Source: an uncultured Bacteroidales bacterium (GTDB lineage Bacteria > Bacteroidota > Bacteroidia > Bacteroidales > Paludibacteraceae). From it: 64,000 nt of DNA. A program made the translations under genes and the position numbers. The notes under the pieces were generated by a model. It had not been told where the DNA came from and ran no database searches. It worked only from the letters and a program-made list of their open reading frames with translations. Below, in pieces: positions 57 to 21,495 of the stretch; within the stretch, counting starts at the first letter, position 1; each line of letters opens with the position of its first letter. The stretch covers positions 1-64,000 of the forward strand of contig CALUNA010000015.1 in NCBI GenBank assembly GCA_944321895.1, written 5' to 3'.

Positions 57-114
57 CGTTTGAACACAAACAACATGCAAGGAAAAAATCATACTGTTTA
101 TTGTTTTTGAACTG

Positions 115-1545: not shown

Positions 1546-1560
1546 AATGGCCGTATAAAA

Positions 1561-1613
1561 CAATAGCGGAAAGGGTGCGGTGGCATAATATCACCTTCAA
1601 CTTTCCGCTATTG
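1561..1613. terminator. Hairpin between convergent rlmD and the epimerase gene
   Basis: A perfect 13-bp inverted repeat (CAATAGCGGAAAG at 1561-1573 with CTTTCCGCTATTG at 1601-1613) lies between two convergent stop codons. There is no strong T-run, so it may act as a weak bidirectional terminator or mRNA 3'-end stabiliser. Confidence 0.65.
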
Positions 1614-1614
1614 A

Positions 1615-2481: not shown

Positions 2482-2520
2482 ATTATGACAGATATAAGGA
2501 TTTTTACGTAAACTTTCGTG

Positions 2521-2528
2521 CAAAAATA
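2521..2528 (-). promoter_or_regulatory. -7 promoter element of the epimerase gene
   Basis: Reads TATTTTTG on the minus strand, matching the Bacteroidota TAnnTTTG element. It lies 40 bp before the ATG at 2481 and rules out the longer reading frame. No equally clear element was found for the divergent sulfatase gene in 2529-2748. Confidence 0.6.
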
Positions 2529-2748
2529 GAATATTTCAGCATATTTGTTGCATGTCCGTTACTTTTTTTATACTTTCGTATTTCCACAATGTTTTCAGCA
2601 GGGCCGATGGAGTCGGATGTTATCCAGTTGTTGTTGTGGAAATATCGGATTGCAGCAGATTTGCAAGTGTTTCCGCCTGATATAAAATCGACATGATACA
2701 CGTCTTGGAGTGGGAACTAATTATTAACATATTGAAAAATAGGAATAT

Positions 2749-4311
2749 ATGAAAAACAACACATTGAAAAATACGTTTCTATGGGCTTCGTTGGCCGGTG
2801 CAGGCATGCTTCCGGCACAGGAACGGCCCAATATTATCATGTTTCTGGTGGATGATATGGGCTGGCAGGATACATCGGTGCCGTTTTATAATACCAAGAC
2901 AAAACTGAACGAACGTTACCATACGCCGAACATGGAGCGGCTGGCTGCGATGGGTGTGAAATTTACCGAGGCATACGCTTGTGCCATTTCGTCACCAACC
3001 CGGTGCAGCCTGATGTCCGGCATGAATGCCGCGCGCCACCGCGTAACCAACTGGACGTTGGATTATGACCAGAAAACGGATGCCGGAAGTGATGTGCTGC
3101 AATTGCCGGACTGGAATTACAACGGCATACAACCGGATACCGTTACGCGGGCACACGATTTGAAAAATGCGACACTGATAACCCCACTGCCGGAAATCCT
3201 GCGGCAAAACGGTTACTATACCATACATTGCGGGAAAGCACATTTTGGAGCAAAGACTACGGCGGGTGAGAATCCGGCCAATATGGGCTTTGATGTGAAC
3301 ATCGGCGGCGGAGCAAATGGCGCTCCTGGAAGCTATCTGGGAAGCCGGAATTTTGGTGCGGGGACACAGTTTGAAGTGCTCGGCCTGGAAAAATACCACG
3401 GACAGGATATTTTCCTGACGGAGGCCCTGACCTTGGAGGCTATCGAGGCCATGAAAAAACCGATAGCAGAAAGGAAACCGTTTTATCTCTACATGTCGCA
3501 TTATGCCGTGCATGCGCCGTATGATGACGATGTCCGGTTCAGCGGCAAATACCGCGGAAGACCGGATGCACAGCTCAACGCCGGATTGAACGAGAATGAA
3601 TCCAGATATGCCGCTTTGGTGGAAGGTATGGACAAGAGCCTGGGCGATATTCTGGATTTTCTGCAAGGCCAGCCGGAGGTGGCTACCAATACAATAATCC
3701 TGTTCATGTCGGACAATGGCGGGCAAGCCTTGAACAATGCACGTCAGGGGTTGGAGAACCGCGACCAGAATTATCCGGCGCGTGCGGGAAAAGGTTCTGC
3801 CTTTATGGGTGGCGTGCACGAACCAATGATGGTGTACTGGCCCGGTGTAACGGAAGCCGGAACGGAAATAAGCCAGCGTGTAATGATTGAGGATTTTTTC
3901 CCGACAATTCTGGACATGGCCGGTGTAGAAACATATCAGACCATGCAGGTTATTGATGGCATCAGTTTTGTCGATGTACTGCATGAACCGGCCGCCATCC
4001 GCGAACGTACCATCGTGTGGCATTTTCCGAATTTGTGGGGCGAAACGCAGAATAGGGAAGAGGGTTACGGCGCTTATTCTGCCATACTGAAAGGTGATTA
4101 CCATTTGATTTATCATTGGGAAACACGGCAAATACGTCTGTATAATGTCAAGAAAGATATCGGTGAGCAGAATGATATTGCCGGTGATTATCCGGAAGTA
4201 GCATCAGAGCTATCCCGGGAACTGGCCGCCTATCTGCGTTCAGTTGATGCGCAACGACCCGCATACAAGGCAACCGGCAGGCTTTGTCCTTATCCGGATG
4301 AAGACCGGTAG
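2749..4311 (+). CDS. Secreted sulfatase, formylglycine-dependent (family S1)
   Basis: A 520-residue sulfatase with an N-terminal signal peptide (residues about 1-24, cut near PAQ) and probable periplasmic or surface location. It hydrolyses a sulfate ester on a glycan or small molecule. Metal-binding Asp35-Asp36 follow the first strand (MFLVDDMGW). The maturation motif is SSPTR at 81-85, so Ser81 is the residue to be oxidised to formylglycine. This serine type needs the radical-SAM enzyme anSME, which is not visible in this window. A later MSDNGG block matches a further metal site. No SusC/SusD pair or glycoside hydrolase adjoins it, so the substrate cannot be inferred from context. It is flanked downstream by a strong terminator. 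Confidence 0.93.
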   Translation: MKNNTLKNTFLWASLAGAGMLPAQERPNIIMFLVDDMGWQDTSVPFYNTKTKLNERYHTPNMERLAAMGVKFTEAYACAISSPTRCSLMSGMNAARHRVTNWTLDYDQKTDAGSDVLQLPDWNYNGIQPDTVTRAHDLKNATLITPLPEILRQNGYYTIHCGKAHFGAKTTAGENPANMGFDVNIGGGANGAPGSYLGSRNFGAGTQFEVLGLEKYHGQDIFLTEALTLEAIEAMKKPIAERKPFYLYMSHYAVHAPYDDDVRFSGKYRGRPDAQLNAGLNENESRYAALVEGMDKSLGDILDFLQGQPEVATNTIILFMSDNGGQALNNARQGLENRDQNYPARAGKGSAFMGGVHEPMMVYWPGVTEAGTEISQRVMIEDFFPTILDMAGVETYQTMQVIDGISFVDVLHEPAAIRERTIVWHFPNLWGETQNREEGYGAYSAILKGDYHLIYHWETRQIRLYNVKKDIGEQNDIAGDYPEVASELSRELAAYLRSVDAQRPAYKATGRLCPYPDEDR

Positions 4312-4332
4312 GCCGGTTTTGGGGGACGAATG

Positions 4333-4368
4333 AAAAAGCCATGTCTTCAGTTGAAGGCATGGCTTTTT
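4333..4368. terminator. Bidirectional terminator between the sulfatase and the giant adhesin gene
   Basis: A perfect 11-bp stem (AAAAAGCCATG at 4333-4343 with CATGGCTTTTT at 4358-4368) has an inner CTTC/GAAG extension. A T-run follows the stem on both strands, which suits two convergent genes. Confidence 0.88.
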
Positions 4369-4425
4369 CCGTATTTTCAGGTCTGATGTATAATGTCTTT
4401 TTTCCAGTCTGTTTGTTTCTTTTCT

Positions 4426-7400
4426 CTATGGCACGATTGCTTTCAATGCCTTGTCCATGTCGTTTGCATAATGGATATTGAACAGGTAGAAACCTTGTTG
4501 CAGTTTGAACCATACGTGGTTTTCCGTTACGGGCAACCGCTGTATCAACATGCCGGCCGCGTTGTAGGCAGATACGTATTCACCGTCCGTGATGCCGCTG
4601 ACCAGCACTTTGCCTTCGGGATAGATGCGCACAACCGGTCCTCCGTGCAGGCCGCTGTTGGCTTCCGGGTTGAATGTGATACGGAAACGGTCGTCCAGGG
4701 TGCCGCCCTCGCTCGCGCTGAACGTATAGTCCTTGTCAAGCAGGTCGGTAGTGGTGCCGTTCAGGCGGTCTATCAATATCACGGCTTCGTATTCCTGCCG
4801 TTCCGAGCCTTCACCTATGCCGATAACGTAATTCCCCGCTTCGGGCAACAGCAATCCGATTTCCGTTTCCGCTTCTTCGTTTACGGCGGAAAGCAGCGAA
4901 TAACGGCCGCCGTTGCGGATGGCGTAGATTTGCGGCTTCCCGTTGTCGGCAAGCCATTTCACGCCGTCGCTGCCCAAGTCAAAACTGTTGCTGGCTTCCG
5001 AGGCCGGTACGGCATTGAATGAACAATAGTCTGCCGTAGCCTTGCTTGCCGTGGTTTTGGTGTAGTCCACGTAAATGGCCATGTTAAGGCTTTTTTGGAA
5101 TGGATTTCCGTTTTTACTGCCTTTGGGTTGTGCAATGCTGAACGTTTCCGTATCTTTCAGCGTTGCCGACTGGGTAAAGACAGCGCTGCCGGCGGGGACA
5201 TAGCCAGCAAGAGCAGTCATGGTATTGGTAGTGACGTAATCATTTCTTTCATAACCATAAAGCACGCGGCCGTATTCCAAGTCGCTGTAATTCATTGCGC
5301 AAAGGTAAGGCGAACCGAACAAGTTCCAGCTCATGTTCTCCTTGTGGGTGAACTTGTTTCCACCATCGCCGGGAGTCGCCCAAGGCTCGTTGAAGTTATA
5401 CTTCTGAAGCGAAATGGACTTGTCTGCACCATTCTCAGTGTAAGGTGCCGTGCTCTTGCCGTAAAAACGGAGCTTCTTCTTGTCTGTTCCGGTTGTATTG
5501 TCAAAAAGCAGGCCTTCGTACATACCGGCTTGGTCGATATCCTTATCAGTCCAAGCGGTATCAACATTAAACTTATAATCGTATTTGGCTCGTTTACTGC
5601 CGTCGTAGCGTTTCGGAGTCAGTCCGTGAAGTTCGCTCGTTGTTGAGTTGACATCAAATGGCATGGCTATCAGGTCAGCACCACCGGCTGGAATTTCGCG
5701 CTCCACGGCAAAGTTGGTCAACGAAATGTGGTTTCTGTTGCCGCGCAGGCCGGCCTGATGCTCCAGGAGCAGGAAGCCGGGGTTGAAAGCAGTGGCAGCA
5801 TCCTGATAAATACCGGTAGTTATCTTCAATTCCTTCTCTTTGCGTACATAAACCACCGACTTGCCGCGGGGATAATCATCATTGGTAACTTCAGCGTCAG
5901 CTGTTATGTTCCACGTCTCGAAGCAGCCGTTGTCCACCGTGTTGCGGATGCGCTTGTTGCCTATCAGGTCGCGTTCGTGGCCGACTTTATCAATGCACGC
6001 TTGAGTAGTTGTGTTAGTTCCTTTATCCAAATTGTCATTGTCAGTTTCCATCAACTGATACTTCCAATAGTCGCCTATAACATATTTGTTTGTATCTTGG
6101 TCTATCACGGAAGCACGGTTGTTGCCACTGCCGGCAGCACCCGTTATTGCGCCCGTCGCAGTTACATTCACGGCTTGAACCGTACTTACAGAACCTTCCA
6201 CAAATGAATTATATAATAAACCGTCTTTTGTTCCTGCGGTTACGTCTTTTTTCACAATCGAAGTTGCAAGTACACCGTTGTTAATGGTTGTAGTACCTGT
6301 AACCTCGAATCCATCGATTACGCCGTCGGCATCGATGGTTACATTTTCCAACGAAGAACGTTCCGTGGCTTCGAGCATGCCTTTGCGCTGGCTAAGAAGT
6401 TCTGCTACTATATCAGTTGTAGTTGCTTGATTGCTACGCTCATCATTCATGCTGCCGTACACCTTTATGTTGCCTAATGTAAGGTTCAGTAAACCGGTTT
6501 CGTGGTAGTTGCCATGTACGAACACATAACCCAATCCAGAATTGTTTTTGGCATACAGTCCTGCCAAATCCACGGCTCCTTGCAAGTCACCAAGTGCCGT
6601 ATCCCAGCTTTTTCCATCGGCCGTTCCCGTCAGGTCGGCTTTTACGTATATGATTTGCTGCAACGGGGCTTCATATTCGTAGGCGCCTACATCAATGTCT
6701 GTGTCAATCAATCGTTTGTTGTCGCCAAGGTCTTTTTCATCATCAAAATTAGCGATTCCCACTTGTGTTGTATAACTGTTTTCGTCTCCATTGTTCAGCA
6801 ATTTTACGCTTGGACGGAGGCTATAATCACGGCTATAAATATCTGTATTGTCCGGGTCGCGGAAATTAGGGCCCTTTTCAAGGTCGTCGTTGGCGATAGT
6901 TCCGTCTATGGACACATTGTGATTGTCTGGGTTGTTTGTTATATAGGTTGCCAGATTTTGTGTGTCATTCTTCCACGCCACCGAGTTATAAATTGCTGGC
7001 GTTCCTGTAGACGACGTATAATCCGTCTTATTATTCGCAAACGTCGCATTTACCACCGTTGTCCGGCTGTCGGCGCCGCTCAATCCTGTGCCGCCATCGG
7101 CAAACAAGGTGTTTACTAATAAAATCTCCCCTTCATTCTTATTAATGTTTAAACCATTAGCCATATTTCCACGGAAAGCCACGTTTTTCAAAGTTAGTTT
7201 TCCATTGGTTGCTGTATTGGCCGTAATGCCATTGCCTCCGTTTGTGTTTTTGTTTATAAAGGTTATTCCTTCAATCAAAACCGGTTTTGCATTGGTTTCT
7301 ACATTCAATAGGGTTTCTGTGTCATTTACATTGCTGGTGTGCGTAGTGATAATGGTAGGCTGACTAAAGTTTTGCATGCCTACGTCATTAAATGAACCTC

Positions 7401-10400
7401 GTATTTCCAATGATATACCATGTGTATCATTTGTACTCATGGACAATGTATATGGCGCACCGGCAGAAAGTTTTGATAATGAGTATTCGCCGGCTTTTAT
7501 ATATATTTTCTTCTCTCTGGTTTTTCCACCAGTCGGATTTGCCATGGATACAATAGCTCCACGTAAGTTGGATGTGGCATTATCCCAGCTGCTACCATCT
7601 CCTTTACCGCTTTCTATAGTTGCAACATAAATAATGTCAGGATGCAGTTGGTATTGATATTCGTACACACCTATATCAATAGGTTTATTCTGCTCATTGC
7701 CGTTGTCATCAAGAGGGCCGGCATAGCGAAAATAGGCAGTTCCATCGCTATTGAGCATGTATTGGTTTTTGTATGTATCAAGATCCCTAGTCCACCATCC
7801 CTCATAAGCTCCGCGGACAGTATTGTCTAAAGCTTTTACACCATCTCCGGCATCCGTCAGCACAGAAATAGCAATAGGATTCCATAGGTTGTTGGCACTG
7901 TAACCGGCAACGCCAGGCACAGTGGATGGTTTGGCAAAACGTGGTCCATCAGCTGCCATGTTTTCAGTGGAGAGTTTGATGTTGGTGGTGCTGTATTTAG
8001 ATAAATCAACGGCATCACTCGCACTATGGGTGATTGTTGTTTTGGTTTCATCTGTTTGGGGAATATTTGTACCCGTAATCTCATTACCCCACATGACAGT
8101 ATTGGTAATGGTGTTTTTGCCATTGTGATGATATATTATTGCGTTACTTTGAGCTCTGTTCCGGACAAATGTATTATTCATGAGGGATACTTCCGGTACG
8201 TATGCAGTTGAGACGCCATCTGCATAATTCGTACCAATGGCTCCTCCTTCGTCAGCAGACTCGTTATTGGCCCACAACGTGTTTACCGCGCGCAAATTAG
8301 CTGCTTTGTCAATGCCCGACACGTATGCGGCACCGCCCCTGCTCGTCAGCGTATTAGTGTTTTCGGCCACCGTCTTGTTTCCGGCCAAAATACAGCCCGA
8401 CAGGTTCAGGTCGGCATCGCGCACAAACACGGCGCCGCCACGCACTGCCGTATTGTTCAGCAGGCGGCAGCGGCTAATCGTATAAGTCACGCCATTGCTA
8501 TAAATGCCGCCGCCGCGGCCTTTCTCATCAATATTAGGAGCTACAGACAACGCGTTGTCCGTCTGCCCGTTCATTACGGTCAGGCCGTCCAAAACAACCG
8601 GATTGGCGGTCCCCGTCCCCTTGTCTGTAAACACTACATGGTAGGCTTTCTGCGCCGTGCTGGAGACATCGATCTGGCCCGAAAGGATGGTCTGGTTGGC
8701 CAGTTCCCACGGTTCCAGGATGTTGTTCTGGTTGAAGTCGGAGTAATCGCGGGCATTTAGGATGCCGGTGATGTCTCCCATACAGGTAAATGTTCCAGTA
8801 ACCCCAGGAATTGATATCAGGTCTGAACCGTCTTTTGCTGTCGAAGAAATCATTTCCGTTCCATCAAATCCTCCATAAATACTAACCCCTTGCGGCACCA
8901 CGAACGAGTAGAGTTTCTGGTCATGGTCGACAGCGGCCCCGGTCGTTCGCAGGTAAGAAGGCTTGTAGGTGCCTCCGGCTACCAGAATCTCAAACTTGGT
9001 ATCGGCATTTTTACCACCTTCCCGCATCGAACGTATATAACCCAGCGCGTCTTCCAGCGTAGAGAACGAGGTATAGAACGAACGGCCCAGATAATCGATC
9101 ATATTTTTCTCGTCTGGTAGCGTCACATTGGTAGTCGGCGACACGAAGATACGGGTGAACAATTTCTCTGGCAGAATGCCGCCCTCGTAGGCGAAGGCTC
9201 CCGCATCAAGGCGTTCGGCGCCATTAACTGTTTGAATGCGGTCGATGTCCTGCATGTCCTTTTCCGCCACGTTGAAGGAGGTTACCAATTCGGTCTGATA
9301 GTTATTCTTCACGCCGTGCTTGATAAGTAGCGAGTAGTCTTTCAGCCGGTAGTAGTCATCGGCGAAATAGAGCGATTTGTCGCTTGCGAGTTTTGTGTTT
9401 TCGAAATCAGATGGCATTTCCTGTTTCTCTACGAAACAGTCATTGAACGGGTAGAAACTGTCCTTGCCCGTATTTTTGAACACGGCAGCCAATTTGCTGT
9501 CTTCGAACTGTTGACTGACCACGCCGCTCACATTCCTGTCCGAGTTGGCCCGGTTGCCGAAAATAACGGTATTGACGTTCATCACCGCACCATCCTCCAT
9601 GTAGAGACCGCCGCCGCTAGAGGTAGCTTCGTTGTTGGCAATGGTGCACGACAGGATATGTGCCCGGGTGTTTGCAGTTACACTGGTATTGTTGGCATCG
9701 GTATTGTCCGCATAGACGCCGCCGCCAACTTCTTCGGCCGAATTTTCCAGTATGGCCGTGCCGCTCACCGTTGCGCCCGGCAACAGGTACAGTCCGCCGC
9801 CTTCAATGGCCTCACAGTTCATTACCACGCAGTTGCGCACATGCGCCCCGCTTGGCACGATGGCGCCGCCACCACGGGTGTTCGGATTGCCTGTTCCAGC
9901 CATGGAGGTGGCACTGCCGTCTTGCAGATAAAGACCGTCAATAATGGCCGGCTTCGTCAGTGCGGCTGTTCCCGGCCATGCACCGAACGTTACGGCATGA
10001 TAGCCGGTTACGTCTTGTGCGGCCGTGTTGGCTACTGCACTTAAAATCGTTTTGTATTGCTTGGGATTGCGAGTCACAAAATCTTCCGTATATCCGCCCT
10101 CCACGATGATGCCCTCGGGTACTACGTAAGTATAGCTTTGCGGGTCGTTCGGGTTACTCAGCGTGTTGGCATGGTAGATAAACGGATCTTTGTAACCGGC
10201 GATGCGTACATATACCTGTCCGTCGGTTATAGTTGTTGCTGTCGTTCCTGCTGCAGTCAAAATTTGCTGCAACTTCATGGCACAGGCGGCATTGCCTGCA
10301 GAGTTACCACTTCGCAACCCTGCTCCGTTCTGGGTCACATAATAAATATAGCTATTTGTCCCATCAGCTTCTGTGACCGTTTTATATCCTATATTGGTTT

Positions 10401-13400
10401 CATTATCGCTTTCGTATGCGCCAATATCCACCGCGCAGTCCTTGATACGGTCGGTAAAGTCAACGTCGGTTTCGGGAAGGGCGAACTCTTCCGTTCCGTT
10501 ATTCAGACACAAGGTAGAACTGCTTAAACGATAATTGTTGGTACTTTGGGCATTCGCTCCTTGCTTAAAAGGATTGGTTAACCCCGTTCCCGTTCCATAA
10601 TTACACCCAGTGAACTTGTTCTGAATATCCGCTGACAAGTCTCGGTTACTTTGTATATAACAATTGGTAGCCCCGTTAAACTTGTCCACATTAACAAAAC
10701 CTAAAGCCTCATTTGCATTGCCATAGAACAGACAGTTATACAGATGTAGATTTGCAGTTCCATAATCATCGCTGAAATACTGATGCAAGCCACCCGTTCC
10801 TGGAGAATTATTATAAGCAATGGTATTGTTATAGAAAGTGGCGGCCTCGATATAAATTCCACCGCCATGGGAACCTGCATAATTATTGGTAACCAACAAG
10901 TTATATCCTGTTCCAAGAATCATGTACATGCCACCGCCATAACAGTCGTTTGGATCACTTCCAGAACAACTATTATTTAAAACGAAGCAGTTAATGACAG
11001 AACTGTTGTCACCGTCACAGTAAATGCCGCCACCGCGGTTTCGAGCTCTGGTATCGCGTGTTGTTTGATTTGTAGTACAATAGTTTGTATTTAATGTAAC
11101 GACACAATTTCTCAGTGTGACACCTCTGAACATGCGCACACCGGCTCCGCCATCACGGTTTGCAAAGTAATCCTTATAATAACCATGGCGAATGGTGAAA
11201 CCGTCCCACACGGCTCCCTCATATTCTACATATCGAGAATCAGAATTATTGTACCGATAAGTATTGGAGTAGCTGTTTTCATCAAAGCTTGCATTTGTGA
11301 TCGGATCGTAACTTGTAGTAGACTTTGTGGGTACGCAGACATCCGGCTGGAACAAAACAGGTTTCCGGTAAACGTCTGCAGGAAGACTGCTCCATCCTGA
11401 GATCGTCGGATTGTTACCGTTCCAGGTTGTTGTTGGATTCTCTCTTACCTGAAGAATCGTCTCATATTTAGTCTTCTCCAGACTTGCGGATGCCGTATTT
11501 GCAGGAACATATTGCGACAACAAGGCTTCGCGGTCATTCTCGTTGGGAGCACCCTTATTGGGGAATCCCCCGTAAACCTCCACCTTATCGCGAATCACGA
11601 AACCTTTCCAGTCGGTATAAATTCCTCCGGCCACCCAGACCTGTACGCGTTTGGTAGCAGTGGCAGCCGCGGATGCTTTTTCTACGGCATATTGAAGACC
11701 GCTTACATACTGTTCTGTTCTATTGTTTGTAATGTTAATATCATTGGTATTATAACTATTTGCCTGAAAGAAAGTCTTGCTATGATTTGAAGTTTCTCCA
11801 TAAGGACAACTATTGTTATTATAAAGTCCGGCATATTCAGGGTATGTAGTTAAGACATCCATACAGGCAGCTGCGGCATCAGGGGCATGCATGTCATAAA
11901 CATTGTTTCCCGCAATGGCATTTTCCCAGGAGGAACCGTCCTTGTTTCCTGCACCGGTTGTCGTGACATAAATTACGCTGCCGGCCTCCGGTAACAACGC
12001 CTCATACGCCCCCAAATCCGGGATACCACCAAGATCACGACTGTTAACAGTTGTAACATCTGTTGAGAGTCCTGTTGCAACTGATACTTTATTGATAATC
12101 AAATTCCCAGCATCGGTCGAACTCGTCAGCGGCCTGAACTCGGAGTAACCACCGAGATAAGTATCGAAACCAAGTGTTGCGCCTGCCTTGTTTGTCGGGT
12201 TGGCAAAGTTCACTGCACCATTTTCACCTATAGAAGCTAAAGTAGTTTGCGTATTGTTCGAGGAATTCCCCGCCGAGAACGACGAAGCATAAAGATTATT
12301 GGTGTTCTCGGGCGCTGCACCAATATTATTCACCACCGTGACATGATTCATCGTCAGCGTTTGTGCGTTAATCACCGGCTTGTCGGCAACTGTGTTCGTG
12401 TTGTTGTTCACCACGCAGTTGTTCATGGTCAACCTGGCATCACGGGCATCGATGGCGGCACCTTCTTGTGCGGTGTGGTTCTCGAAAATGCAGTTTTGCA
12501 GTTTGACGGTTGCACCGCTCTGTGCGAGCAGGCCTGCGCCGTAGGGCAGGGGAGCTTCTCCGGCGGCATAACCGTTGATGACATGGAAGCCGTCAATAAG
12601 TACCTTTGCATCTTTTGCAACCGTAATACAATGATATATGCCATCAGCAAGGTTTTTTCCTTCATAGTTCCCGTTAATGATGGAACGGTAGAGCATCGGG
12701 GCACGGGTAACGTTGTTTGTCGGGTCTGCCGGATCGCGATGGTAACCGCCGTAAATGCGCAACTCGGCACCGCTTGCTATGGTAGGAATATCGATAGTGG
12801 CGGATTTCGGGTCAAGGTCGGCAAAGGCGTATTGCGGATACAAATTGCCTTCCAGCACATGTATTTTTAGATTGAAATTGTTAGGGAGTGTAATCTTACC
12901 GTTATTGTATGTGTTTACTTCATCTCCGTTTTTTAAACCAGCAAAAAAACTGATGGCCTCGTTGAGTGAACGGTAGGCTGTTTCCCAACTACCGCCGCCG
13001 TGCGTGGGTTCTGTGCAATTAACATCAACATATAGGATAAGTGTGTCGTTTGTCCATTCTGGGGTCAATGTCGTCGCTTCTATCCGGAATGCGCCTGTGG
13101 CTGGTTTCTGTGCAAAGAGTTTGCCTTCTATGTCTATTTCCGGTTTGAGCACTATTTCGTCCGGCAGGCTGCCGAGCACCATACCTTTTGCCCGCAGGTT
13201 GGAGCCGGTCATGGGTTTCCAGAAATAGTCAATGGATGTGGTATTGGTTGTACGGTCATATAACCATGTATTTTGTACTCCAACTGTGTTTTTAAGTGCA
13301 TTGTTATCTGCCATTTGTCCACCGGTACCGGTTGAGAAATCAGGATCAAGAATTCCATCCGTCGCGTTGTTGTTGTCTTCGGACAAAGAAACCATTTCCT

Positions 13401-15864
13401 GTTGTAATGTGCTGTTCCACACGGCATTGTTTATGCCTGATGCGGCCGTATGCAGGAAACGTACTTTATCGGCAGTCGGGTTCTGGGCATACATGGGTAT
13501 GTTCTTGCCCTGAATGATGTTGTTCCAGATAACGGAATTGACTATCAGTCCGTATTCGTTGATGTACAGTCCGCCAGTCTGCGAGGCGTTCAGGTTGGTG
13601 TTGTCTGTTGCAGTCGGGCAATTGTTGTTGGTAATGGTTGTTTGCAGGACCACACCGCCCTTGTTGCAATAAACAGCTCCGTTCAGACGGCTGGTGTTGT
13701 TGGATACAACCGATGTGGAAAGAAGCAGGTACTCGGGATGGTTTTTCCCGTCGCTCCATATCCCGGTATGGTCCAAATAAACGCCTGCACCGTTGTTGGC
13801 AGAGTTGTTGCTGACCATGGAGGCCAGTACAAGCCCTCCGTTATCCACATAAATGCCTCCACCGTTTCCATCGGCGTTGTTGTTATAGACCAATGAGTTG
13901 AGCACACGGCCGCCTGCCAGATATATGCCGCCTCCATTACCTGTGGCCGTATTTTCCGTTACAATACAGTTTTCTACATAAGCATTTCCGCCGACATAAG
14001 CACCTGCGCCCTGATTGGTTAGAAATTCTGATGTTCCAATGCCACCTTGAGCAAAACCTCCGCGTATGATAACACCATTCAGCCGGGTTATTTTTTCAAA
14101 TCCTGATTTGCCTTCTGCGGGTAATGGTGCAAACCAAACCACGTGCCGCGAGTCACTTGTCAACGTCCATTTGTTGTCGGTTGTGTTCCAGCTCAGGTTA
14201 TCGTGGTTATAATATGTCGCTTCCAGAATGGTGCGGTTGTCAAGTTCCCACGGCATAACACCTCTTGTTCGCTCTTGTCTGGCTGTTTCCGTGCCGGCGA
14301 ATCCCCCGTAAACGCTGATACCATCGCGCATGCGGAAAGAGGCCGAGTAAGAGGTTCCACTAAGTACTTGTGATTGTGGCGCGTAAGTACCGGCAGCCAC
14401 CCATACTTCACCCGGCATATTCTGTGGATTGTTGTCGGCCAGGTTGTTAATCATTTGTTGCAGGTTGCCTGAGGCGTTCGCCCAGGATGTGCCATCGCCT
14501 GTGCCTCCTTGCTTCACGTAGCGGATGCGGGTACTTGCAACCGGCTGGAATTCATGTGCGCCAATGTCTATGATGCCATTGGTGCGGGTGTTGCCCGACA
14601 TGTCTTTGTCGCCGAATGTGGCGGAGATATAAATGTTGTTGTCCCCCTTGTCGATAAGCGCGGATTGTTCCGTCAAATCCCACGACCAGAGCGGGTAGGC
14701 CGTGTTTGTCCATTGGAATTCGCGGTCATAAGTGGCACGCACCGATGGGGAAGAGAAAAACGGTGAATTGCCCTCGTTGTTGTATTGGTTTATATGAATG
14801 TTATTGTCGGTATTGTCGTTTACTGCTTCATAGAATGCGGAATTCTTGAAATTCGGTTTGTTGGTCAAATAGAGTTCCGAATTTCCCCAAATAACGGTAT
14901 TATAGACATTGTAACTGGCTACGGCCTTTGTCATGTCAATGCCGCTACCACTGTTCCGCGTTACGGTGGAGTTTATGATTTTTGCATTGGCCGAAAGGCA
15001 GGCACCGCCGTTTTCGTTGTTGAAAATGGCACAATTCACTATGGTTCCCGCACCGGCCAAGTATATTCCGCCGCCGGAATTGCTTTGTGTCGTTCGTTGT
15101 CCGGCCGCATTGTTGTACACCGCGCACTGGCTGACAAGCGATTCACCGTTATTGACATTCTTTACTGCAGTGTCCACATAAATGGCACCGCCCTGGGAGG
15201 CGTAGTTGTTGTAGAAGAAGCAGCGTTCAATGCGGTAGTTGCCGCCTCCCTTGCTATTATCACCGTATATATAAATTCCACCGCCTTTCTCATCTGTGCC
15301 GTCTGCATGGCCGCCTGCAATGGTCAAACCGTTCACTACGGTGGGCCAGGTGTTGTTGTTGCTACCCGACGAGGGATCCATGTCCAGCGAGAGCACGTGC
15401 GTGGCATTGTCCGTGCGTTTCGTATTGGCAGGATATATCAGGTTGGTGTTATCTACTATATCGTTTCCATCAATATCTCCCGATAGCACCGAACGGTATT
15501 TCAACTGGTACGGTTTTCCCAAGGTCTCGCGGTCATCGATGTTTGCTTCATCTCCTTTGAACCCGCCGTAAAGTTGCACGCCGGACTTGAGGGTGAAGCC
15601 GGTAGCTGGAGCAATATACAATTGGTTGGTATTTGTGATTTGTTCAAAGCCTTGCAGCCAGATTTGGTCACCAGCTTTGGCTGCAGTCAAAGCACTTTCG
15701 AGCGTCATGGCATTTGTCCATGATAAACCATCGCCCGTACCTTGTGCTTTCGGACTGACATAGTAAATTTTGCCTTGTGCCGTCACCGCGCCTGCCAGGC
15801 AAAGCGCGAAAAACAGCAAATATAGCCTGCAAAAATGCCGTGTATGTATGTTTGTTATGTTCAT
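4426..15864 (-). CDS. Giant secreted parallel beta-helix adhesin with T9SS-like C-terminal domain, last gene of a fimbrial operon
   Basis: A single uninterrupted frame of 3812 residues. A signal peptide (residues 1 to about 30, ending AVTAQG) is followed by about eight tandem modules. Each opens with a strand such as IYYV or IIYV, then G-x-GDGxSWxxA, and holds right-handed parallel beta-helix coils rich in Asn, Thr and the GGGIY motif. Most close with DIGAYE or a variant. Modules start near residues 30, 450, 940, 1300, 1835, 2235, 2745 and 3070. A non-helical region of about 500 residues follows. The last 70 residues (IYPEGKVLVSG, AYNAAGMLIQRL, GFYLFNI, KAIVP) resemble a type A T9SS sorting domain. 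It lies 98 bp downstream of fimbrial lipoprotein genes on the same strand. By analogy with Porphyromonas gingivalis Mfa5, a T9SS-dependent minor fimbrial protein, it may be a fimbrial tip or surface adhesin. That role is inference. Confidence 0.85.
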   Translation of the reverse strand: MNITNIHTRHFCRLYLLFFALCLAGAVTAQGKIYYVSPKAQGTGDGLSWTNAMTLESALTAAKAGDQIWLQGFEQITNTNQLYIAPATGFTLKSGVQLYGGFKGDEANIDDRETLGKPYQLKYRSVLSGDIDGNDIVDNTNLIYPANTKRTDNATHVLSLDMDPSSGSNNNTWPTVVNGLTIAGGHADGTDEKGGGIYIYGDNSKGGGNYRIERCFFYNNYASQGGAIYVDTAVKNVNNGESLVSQCAVYNNAAGQRTTQSNSGGGIYLAGAGTIVNCAIFNNENGGACLSANAKIINSTVTRNSGSGIDMTKAVASYNVYNTVIWGNSELYLTNKPNFKNSAFYEAVNDNTDNNIHINQYNNEGNSPFFSSPSVRATYDREFQWTNTAYPLWSWDLTEQSALIDKGDNNIYISATFGDKDMSGNTRTNGIIDIGAHEFQPVASTRIRYVKQGGTGDGTSWANASGNLQQMINNLADNNPQNMPGEVWVAAGTYAPQSQVLSGTSYSASFRMRDGISVYGGFAGTETARQERTRGVMPWELDNRTILEATYYNHDNLSWNTTDNKWTLTSDSRHVVWFAPLPAEGKSGFEKITRLNGVIIRGGFAQGGIGTSEFLTNQGAGAYVGGNAYVENCIVTENTATGNGGGIYLAGGRVLNSLVYNNNADGNGGGIYVDNGGLVLASMVSNNSANNGAGVYLDHTGIWSDGKNHPEYLLLSTSVVSNNTSRLNGAVYCNKGGVVLQTTITNNNCPTATDNTNLNASQTGGLYINEYGLIVNSVIWNNIIQGKNIPMYAQNPTADKVRFLHTAASGINNAVWNSTLQQEMVSLSEDNNNATDGILDPDFSTGTGGQMADNNALKNTVGVQNTWLYDRTTNTTSIDYFWKPMTGSNLRAKGMVLGSLPDEIVLKPEIDIEGKLFAQKPATGAFRIEATTLTPEWTNDTLILYVDVNCTEPTHGGGSWETAYRSLNEAISFFAGLKNGDEVNTYNNGKITLPNNFNLKIHVLEGNLYPQYAFADLDPKSATIDIPTIASGAELRIYGGYHRDPADPTNNVTRAPMLYRSIINGNYEGKNLADGIYHCITVAKDAKVLIDGFHVINGYAAGEAPLPYGAGLLAQSGATVKLQNCIFENHTAQEGAAIDARDARLTMNNCVVNNNTNTVADKPVINAQTLTMNHVTVVNNIGAAPENTNNLYASSFSAGNSSNNTQTTLASIGENGAVNFANPTNKAGATLGFDTYLGGYSEFRPLTSSTDAGNLIINKVSVATGLSTDVTTVNSRDLGGIPDLGAYEALLPEAGSVIYVTTTGAGNKDGSSWENAIAGNNVYDMHAPDAAAACMDVLTTYPEYAGLYNNNSCPYGETSNHSKTFFQANSYNTNDINITNNRTEQYVSGLQYAVEKASAAATATKRVQVWVAGGIYTDWKGFVIRDKVEVYGGFPNKGAPNENDREALLSQYVPANTASASLEKTKYETILQVRENPTTTWNGNNPTISGWSSLPADVYRKPVLFQPDVCVPTKSTTSYDPITNASFDENSYSNTYRYNNSDSRYVEYEGAVWDGFTIRHGYYKDYFANRDGGAGVRMFRGVTLRNCVVTLNTNYCTTNQTTRDTRARNRGGGIYCDGDNSSVINCFVLNNSCSGSDPNDCYGGGMYMILGTGYNLLVTNNYAGSHGGGIYIEAATFYNNTIAYNNSPGTGGLHQYFSDDYGTANLHLYNCLFYGNANEALGFVNVDKFNGATNCYIQSNRDLSADIQNKFTGCNYGTGTGLTNPFKQGANAQSTNNYRLSSSTLCLNNGTEEFALPETDVDFTDRIKDCAVDIGAYESDNETNIGYKTVTEADGTNSYIYYVTQNGAGLRSGNSAGNAACAMKLQQILTAAGTTATTITDGQVYVRIAGYKDPFIYHANTLSNPNDPQSYTYVVPEGIIVEGGYTEDFVTRNPKQYKTILSAVANTAAQDVTGYHAVTFGAWPGTAALTKPAIIDGLYLQDGSATSMAGTGNPNTRGGGAIVPSGAHVRNCVVMNCEAIEGGGLYLLPGATVSGTAILENSAEEVGGGVYADNTDANNTSVTANTRAHILSCTIANNEATSSGGGLYMEDGAVMNVNTVIFGNRANSDRNVSGVVSQQFEDSKLAAVFKNTGKDSFYPFNDCFVEKQEMPSDFENTKLASDKSLYFADDYYRLKDYSLLIKHGVKNNYQTELVTSFNVAEKDMQDIDRIQTVNGAERLDAGAFAYEGGILPEKLFTRIFVSPTTNVTLPDEKNMIDYLGRSFYTSFSTLEDALGYIRSMREGGKNADTKFEILVAGGTYKPSYLRTTGAAVDHDQKLYSFVVPQGVSIYGGFDGTEMISSTAKDGSDLISIPGVTGTFTCMGDITGILNARDYSDFNQNNILEPWELANQTILSGQIDVSSTAQKAYHVVFTDKGTGTANPVVLDGLTVMNGQTDNALSVAPNIDEKGRGGGIYSNGVTYTISRCRLLNNTAVRGGAVFVRDADLNLSGCILAGNKTVAENTNTLTSRGGAAYVSGIDKAANLRAVNTLWANNESADEGGAIGTNYADGVSTAYVPEVSLMNNTFVRNRAQSNAIIYHHNGKNTITNTVMWGNEITGTNIPQTDETKTTITHSASDAVDLSKYSTTNIKLSTENMAADGPRFAKPSTVPGVAGYSANNLWNPIAISVLTDAGDGVKALDNTVRGAYEGWWTRDLDTYKNQYMLNSDGTAYFRYAGPLDDNGNEQNKPIDIGVYEYQYQLHPDIIYVATIESGKGDGSSWDNATSNLRGAIVSMANPTGGKTREKKIYIKAGEYSLSKLSAGAPYTLSMSTNDTHGISLEIRGSFNDVGMQNFSQPTIITTHTSNVNDTETLLNVETNAKPVLIEGITFINKNTNGGNGITANTATNGKLTLKNVAFRGNMANGLNINKNEGEILLVNTLFADGGTGLSGADSRTTVVNATFANNKTDYTSSTGTPAIYNSVAWKNDTQNLATYITNNPDNHNVSIDGTIANDDLEKGPNFRDPDNTDIYSRDYSLRPSVKLLNNGDENSYTTQVGIANFDDEKDLGDNKRLIDTDIDVGAYEYEAPLQQIIYVKADLTGTADGKSWDTALGDLQGAVDLAGLYAKNNSGLGYVFVHGNYHETGLLNLTLGNIKVYGSMNDERSNQATTTDIVAELLSQRKGMLEATERSSLENVTIDADGVIDGFEVTGTTTINNGVLATSIVKKDVTAGTKDGLLYNSFVEGSVSTVQAVNVTATGAITGAAGSGNNRASVIDQDTNKYVIGDYWKYQLMETDNDNLDKGTNTTTQACIDKVGHERDLIGNKRIRNTVDNGCFETWNITADAEVTNDDYPRGKSVVYVRKEKELKITTGIYQDAATAFNPGFLLLEHQAGLRGNRNHISLTNFAVEREIPAGGADLIAMPFDVNSTTSELHGLTPKRYDGSKRAKYDYKFNVDTAWTDKDIDQAGMYEGLLFDNTTGTDKKKLRFYGKSTAPYTENGADKSISLQKYNFNEPWATPGDGGNKFTHKENMSWNLFGSPYLCAMNYSDLEYGRVLYGYERNDYVTTNTMTALAGYVPAGSAVFTQSATLKDTETFSIAQPKGSKNGNPFQKSLNMAIYVDYTKTTASKATADYCSFNAVPASEASNSFDLGSDGVKWLADNGKPQIYAIRNGGRYSLLSAVNEEAETEIGLLLPEAGNYVIGIGEGSERQEYEAVILIDRLNGTTTDLLDKDYTFSASEGGTLDDRFRITFNPEANSGLHGGPVVRIYPEGKVLVSGITDGEYVSAYNAAGMLIQRLPVTENHVWFKLQQGFYLFNIHYANDMDKALKAIVP
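5850..15780 (-). repeat. Eight divergent beta-helix modules within the giant protein
   Basis: Module openings lie near nucleotides 15770, 14510, 13000, 11940, 10340, 9140, 7600 and 6640, reading down the minus strand. Each shows a strand of the type (I/V)(R/Y)YV, a GxGDGxSW-like turn, and a VWVAAGTY- or VYGGF-like coil. The fifth and sixth have degenerate openings. The seventh and eighth are shorter, with fewer GGG coils. Repeats are clear at protein level but diverged in DNA, so I see no long identical DNA copies that would promote expansion. Confidence 0.7.
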
Positions 15865-15962
15865 TATTTTTATAGTGTAATGGTTTGGTCTGAATATTTT
15901 GTTTTTCCAACTTGCCCATGTGTTTCAAGGTCTTTATGCAATTACCTTGAATATTAAATAAA

Positions 15963-17048
15963 TTAATTCGTTATAGGTATTTCCGTTATGTCGGTTGTTC
16001 CTGTTACTCCTTTGATTGTCGTATTTATTTTATACCATGTCGCTCGTTGCAATGGATTATCAAAATTCATTTTATAACCATTGTTGTTATTACCAGTGTT
16101 TTCTATAAGATTATTGTCTTTGTCTTTAGCCGTAATATCGAATGTAATACTTGGCTTGCTTACTCCATCCGGAAATGTGTAATGATACAACCTGCCGTTG
16201 CGTTGGCTGATTGCCGAGGTGTTATAGAACGTCCATGATTTGTCTTCATTTGTTATGCCCGTTGAGAGGGTGATATCAGGGAACAAACGGCCATATTCTT
16301 TTCCATTATAATTAAATCCCATCACTTTCACATCCGTATATCCGGCTTCGTATGCATCCACGGCATCCCATTGTATGTCTATTTTTGAGGCCAAACGTGT
16401 TAAAGTCATGGTTGGCATATTTACGCCGGTTCCACCTTTGGCTATGTCATAGATAGCTGGTGTCGTACCAGTACCAGTTCCTTTGTAATAACCTGTAGCC
16501 ACGCTGACAAATTTGTCGCCTTGGTTTGTGTCGCCTTTGGCATAGTTGTTTGAAATGGTCAATGCTTCAACGTCGCCTTTTGTTTTACAAGCGTTGATAG
16601 CTTGTTCCAATGTGTCAGCAGCTTGGACTCCTGTGCTGTATGTAACCCCGTAAATATAGGCTTTGCCAATTTGTACTCTCAGTATGAGTTCTTTATACTC
16701 ATCTCCGCTTGCTACCTCAACAGTATCCAATTTATCATAATCAGTCTTGCTGATATTGTTTACAATTACCTGACTGCCTGGTACAACAGGTGTAATGTTG
16801 GAATCGTCCGTGTAAACAAACAGGATACTCATTTGGTCCCAATCGGCCGTTTCCGGCACGGCGGAACCCGGGTCTCCGAAACGCGGTTGCATTGGCGCTT
16901 GCGGGCAACTGATCAGCAACCTGATGGTATCGTATGCGACGACTTGCTCCTGCAGCGCGTCTTTGGGTTGGCACGCCATCAGGGCCGCCATGCCGGTCAG
17001 GGCAAGCAGCAGGTTTTTCATGTGCCGTATGTGCAGGGTCGTTTTCAT
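15963..17048 (-). CDS. Fimbrillin-like lipoprotein (accessory or minor fimbrial subunit)
   Basis: About 361 residues with a type II signal peptide and lipobox LMAC, so it is exported and lipidated. The body is rich in beta-strand, Thr and Asn, with the spacing seen in Bacteroidales fimbrillins, including MTLTRLASKIDIQWDA in the middle. That block resembles the end of the N-terminal domain of FimA/Mfa-type subunits. The start is uncertain: ATG at 17048, only 7 bp after the upstream stop, or ATG at 17021 (MKNLLLALTG). It sits between the Mfa2-like anchor and the giant adhesin, the position of accessory subunits (Mfa3/Mfa4 type) in fimbrial operons. It could instead be an adaptor for the giant protein. 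Confidence 0.72.
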   Translation of the reverse strand: MKTTLHIRHMKNLLLALTGMAALMACQPKDALQEQVVAYDTIRLLISCPQAPMQPRFGDPGSAVPETADWDQMSILFVYTDDSNITPVVPGSQVIVNNISKTDYDKLDTVEVASGDEYKELILRVQIGKAYIYGVTYSTGVQAADTLEQAINACKTKGDVEALTISNNYAKGDTNQGDKFVSVATGYYKGTGTGTTPAIYDIAKGGTGVNMPTMTLTRLASKIDIQWDAVDAYEAGYTDVKVMGFNYNGKEYGRLFPDITLSTGITNEDKSWTFYNTSAISQRNGRLYHYTFPDGVSKPSITFDITAKDKDNNLIENTGNNNNGYKMNFDNPLQRATWYKINTTIKGVTGTTDITEIPITN

Positions 17049-17055
17049 GCCGTGT

Positions 17056-18081
17056 TTAGATTTCAATGTCATAGTTTCCGCCAGGTTTCCAGTCAAATAT
17101 AATGCTGACGCCGATAATGCTTGAATTGCTGATGATTTCGCCGCCGTTGCCCAGATATACTTTCAGCACTTTGGCTTGTCCGGCAAGCAAGGGCTCTTTT
17201 ATGTAGAGGATATTCCGAACGTATTTCCCATCAGGTGTTTGCGTGATGACTTCCATGTGCCAGATACTGCCGGCGGCGGCTTCCTCGGCCGGTGTCTGTT
17301 TGGTGCTTCCCGCGCTTTCCCGGGATGGGAAGCATACGGCATAATATGAAATCAGTCCGCCGCCTTCGGTACGGCTGTTACGCACCACATAGTTGTTGTC
17401 AAAAATGGGTTGCCGGTCAATGCAGTTTATGCCGCAAGCCACCTGGTTCGTATAGACGGAGAGAACTTTGGCTGGCGATTCCTGCGGGTCTATGACCAGT
17501 ATGGCAATGGAGTTTTGCATGTGGAGCGGCACGTAGAATGTCTGCGAGCTGACCGGGTCGATGTCCATGTGCAGGTTGCCGGTGTAGATGGCGCTTGTCT
17601 GGCTGCTTACGGTGTCGCGGGTATCGTGCACAATGTTGTATGCCGTCCATTGGTCAGCATTCCTTTTGATAAATGCCGGCTCGTCGGCCGTGTTCGCTAC
17701 TGCTATGTGTTCATACGCGCCTGCTTGCAGGTAAAGCCTTGTTGTCAGCTCGTTGGTGTTGGTCTGGAGGCTGTCGTGCTGGATGCGCAGCCCGTCGGTC
17801 GGGTCGTAGAACGACAAGTCTATGTTGCGTGCCTTGTCGCTGATGACGCCTTGCAGGTCGCGCAGCAAGGAGTCTGCCAGCACGCTTTCCAGGCCGGTGT
17901 TCAGTACTTCCTGGATGGTCAGTTTTAAATCCATTTCCAATCTGAGCTGGAAAGTGATGTTACATTCCGAATCGCAACCCGACAGGTCTTCATCGATACA
18001 GCCATGGTATGCCGGCAAACAGGCACACAACATGCCTGCAAGCATCCAACGGCGGAATTTCAGGAAACGTGGTTTGCGCAT
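17056..18081 (-). CDS. Mfa2/FimB-family fimbrial anchor lipoprotein
   Basis: About 341 residues. The signal peptide is followed by lipobox residues YHGC (Cys28) and then IDEDLSGCD, the signature beginning of the FimB/Mfa2 family. These proteins anchor the fimbrial shaft to the outer membrane and limit its length. The body has a conserved AGAYEHIAVAN block near residue 130. The open frame extends to 18123, but ATG 18081 places the positively charged n-region (MRKPRFLKFRR) directly before the hydrophobic segment. It lies 69 bp after the fimbrillin gene and 7 bp before the next lipoprotein gene, which indicates one transcript. Confidence 0.85.
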   Translation of the reverse strand: MRKPRFLKFRRWMLAGMLCACLPAYHGCIDEDLSGCDSECNITFQLRLEMDLKLTIQEVLNTGLESVLADSLLRDLQGVISDKARNIDLSFYDPTDGLRIQHDSLQTNTNELTTRLYLQAGAYEHIAVANTADEPAFIKRNADQWTAYNIVHDTRDTVSSQTSAIYTGNLHMDIDPVSSQTFYVPLHMQNSIAILVIDPQESPAKVLSVYTNQVACGINCIDRQPIFDNNYVVRNSRTEGGGLISYYAVCFPSRESAGSTKQTPAEEAAAGSIWHMEVITQTPDGKYVRNILYIKEPLLAGQAKVLKVYLGNGGEIISNSSIIGVSIIFDWKPGGNYDIEI

Positions 18082-18150
18082 ATCGGGTTGTTTTTTATAA
18101 GTTGTGGACACCAGGCCACCCAAGGCCCGGTATCCTGATATGATTTTTTT

Positions 18151-19914
18151 TTAGTCTATCGTGACACCAAATACCAATCCGGCTTGCCAGTCCAGGTCAA
18201 CCGAAATACCCAAGCTCATTTCCGTATTGCGCAAATCGGGAATGGTTACCGATGCGCTTTTCAATGAATTGATGGTCAGGTTGGCCGTGGTTACGTAGTC
18301 TTGCATAAATACGGCTGGATCAGCTATTGGAGTGGCGGGTTGTGTTCCATTACCAGGAACCAATGTCGCTACCAGATAGAACTTGGCTCCGACAGGAACG
18401 ACGCCATTCTGGCCATAAAATGCGGCGCCGGTGTTGTTTTCCAGCTCGATAACCATGCTAACATTGTTTTGAGTAGGTCCAGTAACTTTGTTTTCCAGCA
18501 ATAAGGTGTAATTATCTCCTCCTGTGGCAGAATTTGTACCATCATTCATTGCCTTGATATTGACTTCATTGTCATAAATAATTTGGGTTTTTGTTCCATC
18601 GCTGGCAAAACTCCAGTTTACTTTTTCCGGTTGTCCGGCAATCAATATGCCCGTAACGGGGAAACCATTCGCATCAACAGTTACATTGTTATCATTCACA
18701 TCTTTTAATGTTCCGCTTGCACATTTTACCGTCGTTTTCAGGCTTGCTACGCTATACTGAATGTTGTTTGCCAAGGCTATGGCGTGTGTGGATTCACGGA
18801 CTTCATCGTACCAACCATTGGCTGCCCAATCATAGCCAGCCCAAGTCGTCGGCCAAGTCGGACTTACTGCATCCGTTGCCCATGCGGCTGTGTTGGTAAA
18901 GTAGTAAAGCGAAGCCGGGAAACAGATATTGCCGGTAGCAATGGTAGTTGAGTTAATGTCTGCGTTGTCTATATAGCTGAACGCTCCGTTCTTGAATTCA
19001 ACTTGCGCTGCACCTTGTGGCAGGTTGCAGTTTTCGGGGTAGGTGTTTGCGGTTTTATATTCTAATGTATGTATGCCATTAGTAGTTGTTATATTAAAAA
19101 CGTTCCCAATTTCACCAGTTATTAATTTTGCTATAGTTGTTTCTTGGGGCTCTGGTGTAGATGTACTGCTTGCAAAACCATACACAGCATTATACAAATC
19201 CTGCAAAGTCAGACAGATCATTTTTGCAGAACCTGCTTTAAGTTTAATATAGTTATTATATAAAACAGTCAAAGTCTTGGTCTCATTCCCAGCAGTTTCT
19301 GCATAATCTTCCCATCCAGTAGCTCCAGCAACGGCATTCAGGACATTTAGTAAGGCTTTTTGTCCATTGGTTGTAGCATCATCTGCAGCAGTTCCCGTAG
19401 TTACTTTTTCCAACGCGAAAGTGATTCCGGTAGTGCTTGTCGGTGCTGGCGTTTCATCTAAGCTGGTTTTCAATACACCTTGGGCAAATTTATCCGTAGG
19501 CGTACCAGTGCCTCCAATGCCATAAAACAGGAAATTGGTTGTGCCGACTGGAATGCTTACATCGCTGTAAATTTTCTGGTTGTTGTTTAAATCGGTATTA
19601 CCAATGGGTGCTAAATCAATAATACTTGTAAAACCATTCCCAGTTGCTTCTGTCGCATTGCGTGGCAGTAATTTAATACTATACATGCCCAGGAAATTTC
19701 CATTAGCCTGGGTGTTGGCTGCGCTCATACGCGTGCCGGTTTTCCCTACCTGCGGCAAGTTGAACGCGAACGATGTTTTTACGCTTTCGGCCGGTGCTGT
19801 TGCGCCCGGGTCATTCTGGATGACTTCGTTTTTGTCCTTGCAGCTATGGAATGCCATAGTTCCTGCGGCTAACAGGGCTATCAGGACTTGCGGTTTCAAT
19901 AAAAAGTTGTTCAT
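18151..19914 (-). CDS. Major fimbrillin candidate, FimA/Mfa1-like lipoprotein
   Basis: 587 residues with a lipoprotein signal peptide (lipobox ending at Cys25) and a KDKNE start to the mature protein. After a short linker comes a strand-like segment (SFAFNLPQVGK) and TGTRM with Arg62. In FimA/Mfa1 pilins, cleavage after an Arg at such a position releases the N-terminal strand so that subunits can polymerise by strand exchange. The rest is beta-rich and Thr/Asn-rich. As the first structural gene of the operon and its largest fimbrillin, it is the best candidate for the shaft subunit. It is longer than FimA or Mfa1 (about 350-560 residues). Confidence 0.78.
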   Translation of the reverse strand: MNNFLLKPQVLIALLAAGTMAFHSCKDKNEVIQNDPGATAPAESVKTSFAFNLPQVGKTGTRMSAANTQANGNFLGMYSIKLLPRNATEATGNGFTSIIDLAPIGNTDLNNNQKIYSDVSIPVGTTNFLFYGIGGTGTPTDKFAQGVLKTSLDETPAPTSTTGITFALEKVTTGTAADDATTNGQKALLNVLNAVAGATGWEDYAETAGNETKTLTVLYNNYIKLKAGSAKMICLTLQDLYNAVYGFASSTSTPEPQETTIAKLITGEIGNVFNITTTNGIHTLEYKTANTYPENCNLPQGAAQVEFKNGAFSYIDNADINSTTIATGNICFPASLYYFTNTAAWATDAVSPTWPTTWAGYDWAANGWYDEVRESTHAIALANNIQYSVASLKTTVKCASGTLKDVNDNNVTVDANGFPVTGILIAGQPEKVNWSFASDGTKTQIIYDNEVNIKAMNDGTNSATGGDNYTLLLENKVTGPTQNNVSMVIELENNTGAAFYGQNGVVPVGAKFYLVATLVPGNGTQPATPIADPAVFMQDYVTTANLTINSLKSASVTIPDLRNTEMSLGISVDLDWQAGLVFGVTID

Positions 19915-19971
19915 AATACAAAAAATGAGAGTGATACTTGTTGTTATTTGTTCATTTATTATTGTCTGTTT

Positions 19972-20607
19972 CTAATTTCCGATAACGTATGCAAGGGACA
20001 AGCCGACTTTGGTCGGCACAAAGCGGTTGGTTGTTTCCTTTCCCAGATGTATGCCGCACCGTTTTTTCTCGTAATAGTCGAATACGGCATGCGAAAATCC
20101 GACACCTATTTCCGCCTCGACACTCCAGTGGTCGCTCAGCACCCAGTGGTAGCCGTAGCCCACGCCGATGGCGTATTCGTTGCCCTGGCAGCGTTGTGTT
20201 TCCAGGCGCGGGAATATGCCAAACGGCAACCGCAGACCGCCCACATTGAAACGTGTGTAGGAGGCGTGTATGCCAATGAAATGCGCGCCGGCGTTCCGGT
20301 CGTCACAGTCTTTCGCATCTATCCAGCGGCACGGTGAATCGTTCACGCCGAACGGTCCGCCGAACCAAAAGCGGTATTCCGGCTGTATGCGCAAATGTTT
20401 CCATTTCACGTTGTTTTCAAAACTCCACGGATTGTATGATATTCCCACCGCCAGGGTGGACATGTTGCCGATACGGAATTCGGGTTCAATGTTCAGGGAA
20501 AGGGTTGCCCAGTTGGACAAGTCGGTCTTGATAGCCATGAACTGTGCCTTCGCCGCTGTTGTCAGGAAGCAACTTAAAATAATGAACAACCGACATTTCC
20601 GATTCAT
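19972..20607 (-). CDS. DUF3575 family protein, first gene of the fimbrial operon
   Basis: 211 residues: a signal peptide (cleavage near KAQ), then a DUF3575-type body with TDLSNWATLSLNIEPEFRI, IQPEYRFWFGG and repeated amphipathic beta-strands. This pattern suggests a small outer-membrane beta-barrel. In Bacteroidales, DUF3575 genes are repeatedly found at the head of Mfa-type fimbrial operons, though the biochemical role is not known. It is 57 bp upstream of the fimbrillin gene. The C-terminal strand ends VGLSLAYVIGN, consistent with a barrel closing strand. It is probably an envelope accessory factor for fimbriae. Confidence 0.8.
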   Translation of the reverse strand: MNRKCRLFIILSCFLTTAAKAQFMAIKTDLSNWATLSLNIEPEFRIGNMSTLAVGISYNPWSFENNVKWKHLRIQPEYRFWFGGPFGVNDSPCRWIDAKDCDDRNAGAHFIGIHASYTRFNVGGLRLPFGIFPRLETQRCQGNEYAIGVGYGYHWVLSDHWSVEAEIGVGFSHAVFDYYEKKRCGIHLGKETTNRFVPTKVGLSLAYVIGN

Positions 20608-20750: not shown

Positions 20751-20782
20751 CAAATGTATGTTTTCTGTTTAAGATGAGCAAT
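20751..20782 (-). promoter_or_regulatory. Promoter of the fimbrial operon
   Basis: On the minus strand, TACATTTG (20751-20758) matches TAnnTTTG and is preceded 20 bp upstream by ATTG (20779-20782), a -33-like element at the usual Bacteroidota spacing. It predicts a leader of about 135 nt before the DUF3575 gene. Confidence 0.6.
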
Positions 20783-21470: not shown

Positions 21471-21495
21471 TCGTAAATAATTGGTAGTAATAGGA

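Follow-up and report, generated by a model that had tools for sequence, protein, structure and literature searches.

Type V pili are a main adhesive structure of Bacteroidota, and their ligand-binding end has been characterised in few species. The window analysed here, a whole stretch of 64,000 nucleotides from an uncultured bacterium of the Paludibacteraceae (contig CALUNA010000015.1), contains a type V (FimA/Mfa-type) fimbrial operon whose last gene encodes a giant protein. This raises the question of what the giant is, and whether it is part of the pilus. The reading that we favour, with somewhat more confidence than doubt, is that it would be a modular beta-helix adhesin, exported by the T9SS and joined to the fimbria via the fimbrillin encoded upstream of it, where it would form a distal fibre that reaches the ligand.

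We checked the open reading frames of the locus. As seen from Table 1, the minus strand carries five genes in the order DUF3575, FimA-like, Mfa2-like, fimbrillin-like lipoprotein and giant. The intergenic gaps are 57, 69, 7 and 98 bp, taking the first ATG as the start of the two frames that open with TTG (18081 for the Mfa2-like gene, listed with a TTG start at 18123, and 17048 for the last fimbrillin-like gene). Between 3000 and 24000 on the minus strand, a pattern scan for promoters of the Bacteroidota -33/-7 type gave a single non-coding match, which precedes the DUF3575 start by 144 bp; the sole other match in this range lies within the shaft gene. In the gap between the last fimbrillin and giant genes (15865-15962), the promoter and hairpin scans found no promoter-like site and no minus-strand terminator-like hairpin. 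The collinear order on one strand, the gaps of 7-98 bp and the promoter only at the head, all claimed in the preliminary description, are confirmed by these scans, and the separate promoter and terminator in the last gap, which it had regarded as evidence against its reading, did not turn up. From their spacing, the five genes are probably co-transcribed. The strong hairpin that follows the giant gene is common to the 3′ ends of this gene and of a convergent sulfatase gene (2749-4311). The divergent neighbour at the other side of the operon (21481-22542) encodes a PDDEXK nuclease of the YhcG/DUF1016 type, which may be mobile or related to defence, and short 15-bp tandem repeats lie further away in the window, at 31199-31236 and 62407-62443.

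Table 1. Features of the fimbrial operon and of the giant protein (positions in the window).
Feature	Position	Strand	Basis
Promoter-like site TTG-N20-TACATTTG	20751-20781	-	Bacteroidota -33/-7 type, pattern scan
DUF3575 outer-membrane-like protein, 211 aa	19972-20607	-	PF12099, E 2.7e-55
FimA/Mfa1-like major fimbrillin (shaft), 587-aa lipoprotein, Cys25	18151-19914	-	predicted fold
Mfa2/FimB-like anchor lipoprotein, 341 aa from ATG	17056-18081	-	PF08842 in 17/29 same-position homologues
Last fimbrillin-like lipoprotein (Mfa3/Mfa4/FimC position), 361 aa from ATG	15963-17048	-	homologues, linkage
Giant surface protein, 3812 aa	4426-15864	-	PF13229, E 6.4e-8; NF041518, E 4e-15
Type I signal peptide, giant residues 1-30, ...GAVTA/Q	15775-15864	-	sequence
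About eight serial right-handed beta-helix modules	5917-15768	-	motif scan; Pfam Beta_helix and PMP repeats
Conserved non-helix region, residues 3317-3743 (400-500 residues)	4636-5916	-	about 26% alignment in other giants
T9SS type A CTD-like C-terminus, residues 3744-3812	4426-4635	-	alignment of orthologue C-termini
Terminator-like hairpin, 17 pairs, nearly palindromic	4332-4369	.	3′ of giant, before convergent sulfatase gene

Pfam recognised none of the window's own 587-aa, Mfa2-like and last fimbrillin-like proteins, and the assignments of these middle genes rest on their homologues and, for the 587-aa protein, also on its predicted fold. None of the 43 homologues of the 587-aa protein gave a fimbrillin match in Pfam. 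Its AlphaFold2 model built with these homologues had a pLDDT of 81 and a pTM of 0.82 (pLDDT was 35 with three sequences). Compared with structures by VIA-align, the model matched 26 Bacteroidales fimbrillin/adhesin entries with Z of 6.8-12.3, including the FimA2 prepilin (6jzj, 11.1), Mfa2 (10.5), Mfa3 (10.2) and Mfa1 (5nf2, 9.9), and unrelated rows reached at most 5.8; the best Foldseek matches were Bacteroidales fimbrillins and adhesins too. The shaft protein is predicted to have the two-beta-sandwich fold of type V fimbrillins, with a helical insertion (residues about 177-287, modelled with good confidence) between strands of this fold. The predicted fold and the presence of PF08842 in the anchor homologues support the earlier claim that this is a FimA/Mfa fimbrial operon. 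All three proteins, shaft, anchor and last fimbrillin, carry a lipobox-like cysteine, which in the shaft is invariant in the alignment. Profile searches of solved structures with these three proteins gave nothing significant, the DUF1812 protein 3gf8 being a weak match (E 0.2) to the anchor profile only.

In type V pilins a strand is removed, after which the subunits polymerise by donor-strand exchange (PMC7835359). The shaft protein of the window has a cleavage-like site, R62-M63, and its homologues have at this place, following the predicted strand 44-52, Arg (32/43) or Lys (6/43) and then Met in 41 of 43. Such a basic residue and near-invariant methionine are as would be expected for trypsin-like maturation of a type V pilin. 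At the head of the operon, many relatives have a longer DUF3575 protein of 460-640 aa, and the one that was scanned (L080) adds an OmpA-like match. Two related loci (L038, 14153-15580; L040, 13211-14392) have an extra DUF3868/OmpA/TPR-like gene between the DUF3575 and shaft genes, which is absent from the window operon.

We then analysed the giant itself. PF13229 matched it above its cut-off in two stretches, and NF041518 is a choice-of-anchor Q match. A motif scan placed the heads of its modules at residues 33, 447, 944, 1297, 1840, about 2245, 2744 and 3071, each module opening with YV-x-G-D-G-x-SW or a relic of it and most closing with D-x-G-A-Y-E. The giant thus reads as a chain of beta-helix modules, spanning residues about 33-3316, rather than as one continuous helix. 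The preliminary description had implied a single right-handed beta-helix at the end of the operon; the terminal place and the beta-helix profiles stand, and the single helix gives way to about eight modules and other regions. A right-handed beta-helix has 22-25 residues and 0.48 nm per coil, and we estimate from this general geometry that the approximately 3280 modular residues, if stacked end to end, would extend for roughly 60-70 nm. Intact orthologues of the giant are about 3500-5160 aa long. The giants compared, from other genera of the family, align collinearly from window residue 447 to the C-terminus, the first window module being without a collinear counterpart. This collinearity makes them orthologues, as opposed to beta-helix proteins that just resemble each other. 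In one genome (G009; L039 4581-6750) the giant is split into frames of 4163 and 637 aa, by a frameshift or an assembly error.

The giant has a signal peptide, as T9SS type A cargo does, and a C-terminus that resembles the sorting domain (CTD) of such cargo, and differs from it as the last gene of a fimbrial operon and by its beta-helix modules. TIGR04183 matched 16 of 42 C-termini of orthologous giants, with the copies of two genomes (G009 and G026) above the cut-off; the window giant's own CTD matched neither TIGR04183 nor Pfam, though it aligned with the orthologue C-termini. The window genome encodes SprA (SprA_N, E 2.6e-193, in a 2486-aa frame) and has more than 50 TIGR04183 matches above cut-off, a high density of type A CTDs for 2.63 Mb. 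SprA was also found in all eight giant-bearing named genomes tested and in 338 of 358 genomes of the family, and because it is so common there, presence versus absence of T9SS is useless as a contrast. The CTD-like C-termini, the signal peptide and the T9SS in the genome indicate that the giant is probably T9SS cargo.

We analysed how widely the giant and its neighbourhood are distributed. A profile of the giant's middle region, searched against 358 family genomes of 33 genera, found it in 58 genomes of 7 genera. Three other genera of the family carry the giant together with an Mfa2-like gene, and in two genomes (G009, G010) the genes are adjacent, in order and on one strand. The gene order was the same in all 17 family loci that had enough upstream DNA and the start of the giant, although in two of these (L093, L094) the shaft profile did not recognise the protein at the shaft position; an eighteenth locus (L095), cut by a contig end, is consistent with this order. 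The one other genome of the window's genus (G001) gave no match to the giant or to the Mfa2-like protein, nor could an empty site be identified there, the best matches of two flanking genes being distant only. A scan of named genomes found 76 loci with the giant. Its hosts, many of them rumen bacteria, include Paraprevotella xylaniphila YIT 11841, Segatella copri iA622, and Prevotella and Paludibacteraceae genomes. We counted linkage in the 66 named loci that had 1 kb or more of DNA preceding the giant and were found via the giant profile alone. In 63 of them the gene immediately before the giant is the last fimbrillin-like gene, and the Mfa2-like gene is also there in 55. The three exceptions are two distant beta-helix proteins (L170, L172) and a fragmented giant (L148). 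The linkage has been kept across at least two families, as it occurs in no fewer than seven genera of this family as well as in Bacteroidaceae-type genomes. A search for such loci ending in beta-helix giants had been proposed along with the initial observation, as had the view that unlinked neighbours in relatives would speak against it; the search run here, from the giant's profile, found fimbrillin and giant kept together.

The partner of the giant appears to be the last fimbrillin. This lipoprotein has an invariant Cys42 and a DPG motif in the alignment; two of its homologues match PF08842 and two match PF13149 weakly. Its gene is separated from that of the giant mostly by less than 100 bp and often by 1-20 bp, and in several species the two overlap by 4-14 bp. 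The divergence of the two proteins correlates (Spearman 0.80), a correlation that shared ancestry alone can give. In addition, there is a second locus type (L113, L117, L133, L138, L152, L153, L160, L165), where the usual shaft and anchor are missing and, in the loci examined, other fimbrillin-like lipoproteins take their place, and PF13149 (Mfa_like_1) was found in three of the four replacement lipoproteins scanned, from L113 and L153. The last fimbrillin remains paired with the giant in all eight. A pairing that persists when shaft and anchor are exchanged suggests a direct partnership, in which the last fimbrillin is probably what connects the giant to the pilus.

In Porphyromonas gingivalis, the last protein of the mfa1 operon, Mfa5, is large, T9SS-dependent and located at the fimbrial tip with Mfa3 and Mfa4 (PMC7835359). 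Both operons have a shaft gene, an anchor gene and accessory fimbrillin genes, followed by a gene for an exceptionally large protein, which uses the T9SS route in P. gingivalis (PMC7835359) and probably does so here. However, the window operon has a DUF3575 head gene and a helical insertion in its shaft subunit, and Mfa5 is a 1228-aa protein with vWF and Ig-like domains, whereas the giant has beta-helix modules and, in a domain search of the whole protein and of six pieces, gave no VWA match. As regards gene position and export route, the giant is most likely the counterpart of Mfa5, yet it is a different protein. The preliminary description had contrasted it with Mfa5, which it called a vWA-type, T9SS-secreted tip protein; the contrast holds for architecture and size but probably not for export, given the CTD-like end, the TIGR04183 matches of orthologues and the T9SS of the genome.

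Other Bacteroidales loci have a similar beginning. The BT4227-BT4236 region of Bacteroides thetaiotaomicron has DUF3575 and DUF3868 genes near an Mfa1-type fimbrillin gene (PMC10434189), and the description used for this comparison mentions no giant beta-helix protein. The DUF3575-DUF3868-FimA-Mfa2 loci of other families (e.g. L190, L200, L201) have head, shaft and anchor in the order seen here. Many such loci end in lipoproteins of 1000-1100 aa, one with a weak Fib_succ_major match, and in L201 the last protein (5443-11133) has 1896 aa and matches Por_Secre_tail (the T9SS tail) weakly, with no other clear domain. As the last proteins differ, the terminal slot appears exchangeable, the beta-helix giant being one widespread version. 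Our search of open-access papers found no description of beta-helix proteins with fimbriae, in agreement with the earlier remark that the architecture looked undescribed. The locus looks like a conserved and seemingly undescribed form of an already known type of bacterial pilus.

We propose that the shaft, anchor and accessory fimbrillin would be made as lipoproteins and reach the cell surface, where a trypsin-like cleavage (R62-M63 in the shaft) would strip their N-terminal strand and allow polymerisation by donor-strand exchange. The giant would cross the outer membrane via SprA/Sov and be attached to the fimbria by the fimbrillin encoded just upstream, to serve as a long distal fibre to ligands, a role like that of P. 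gingivalis Mfa5 with Mfa3/Mfa4. By this analogy the giant would sit at the tip and act in adhesion to a glycan or host ligand. Whether such loci make up a subclass of type V pili, conserved among Bacteroidota of gut and rumen, with a T9SS-exported serial beta-helix terminal fibre, a dedicated adaptor fimbrillin and a slot exchangeable between vWA (Mfa5), lipoprotein and beta-helix proteins, we regard as evenly balanced. In such a subclass one filament would be built by two export routes.

The giant could instead be a T9SS surface adhesin in its own right, attached to polysaccharide after cleavage of its CTD and merely co-regulated with the fimbria. T9SS cargo is commonly fixed to surface polysaccharide once the CTD is removed (PMC9477747), conservation of the giant, at up to 64%, exceeds that of the pilus subunits (39-42% at best), and the giant pairs with unrelated shaft types. 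Against this reading, the giant almost invariably lies next to one fimbrillin-like gene, at a short distance or overlapping it, and the two proteins co-vary, even if shared ancestry alone can give this. Moreover, Mfa5 also has a CTD and sits at the fimbrial tip (PMC7835359). We consider an independent adhesin possible but rather unlikely.

The fimbria might also bear a degradative complex, the modules being enzymes of the pectate-lyase type or processing other polysaccharides. Many polysaccharide lyases and hydrolases are right-handed beta-helices, and many hosts of the giant live in the rumen; however, neither the whole giant nor its pieces matched any lyase or hydrolase family, the matches being to generic Beta_helix, PMP repeat and choice-of-anchor Q profiles only, which makes this explanation improbable. 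That the giant is an unrelated neighbour of ordinary fimbriae by chance is barely conceivable, as the adjacency is kept in 63/66 loci, in several genera and at least two families, and we rejected it. The reading that we prefer remains a fimbria carrying the giant via the last fimbrillin. If it is true, type V pili have a second, widespread type of terminal protein, carried by Paludibacteraceae of the rumen, Prevotella, Segatella copri and Paraprevotella xylaniphila. The attachment of T9SS cargo to a lipoprotein-derived pilus, unsolved for Mfa5, could be tested in gut commensals; gene disruption is established in the related Paraprevotella clara (PMC9477747).

The giant of the window is 57-64% identical, in the N-terminal part compared, to copies in genomes labelled Prevotella, Bacteroides and Paraprevotella and to one copy of its own family (L105), and most copies of the family are about 28% identical to it. 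From this pattern, lateral transfer of the giant seems likely.
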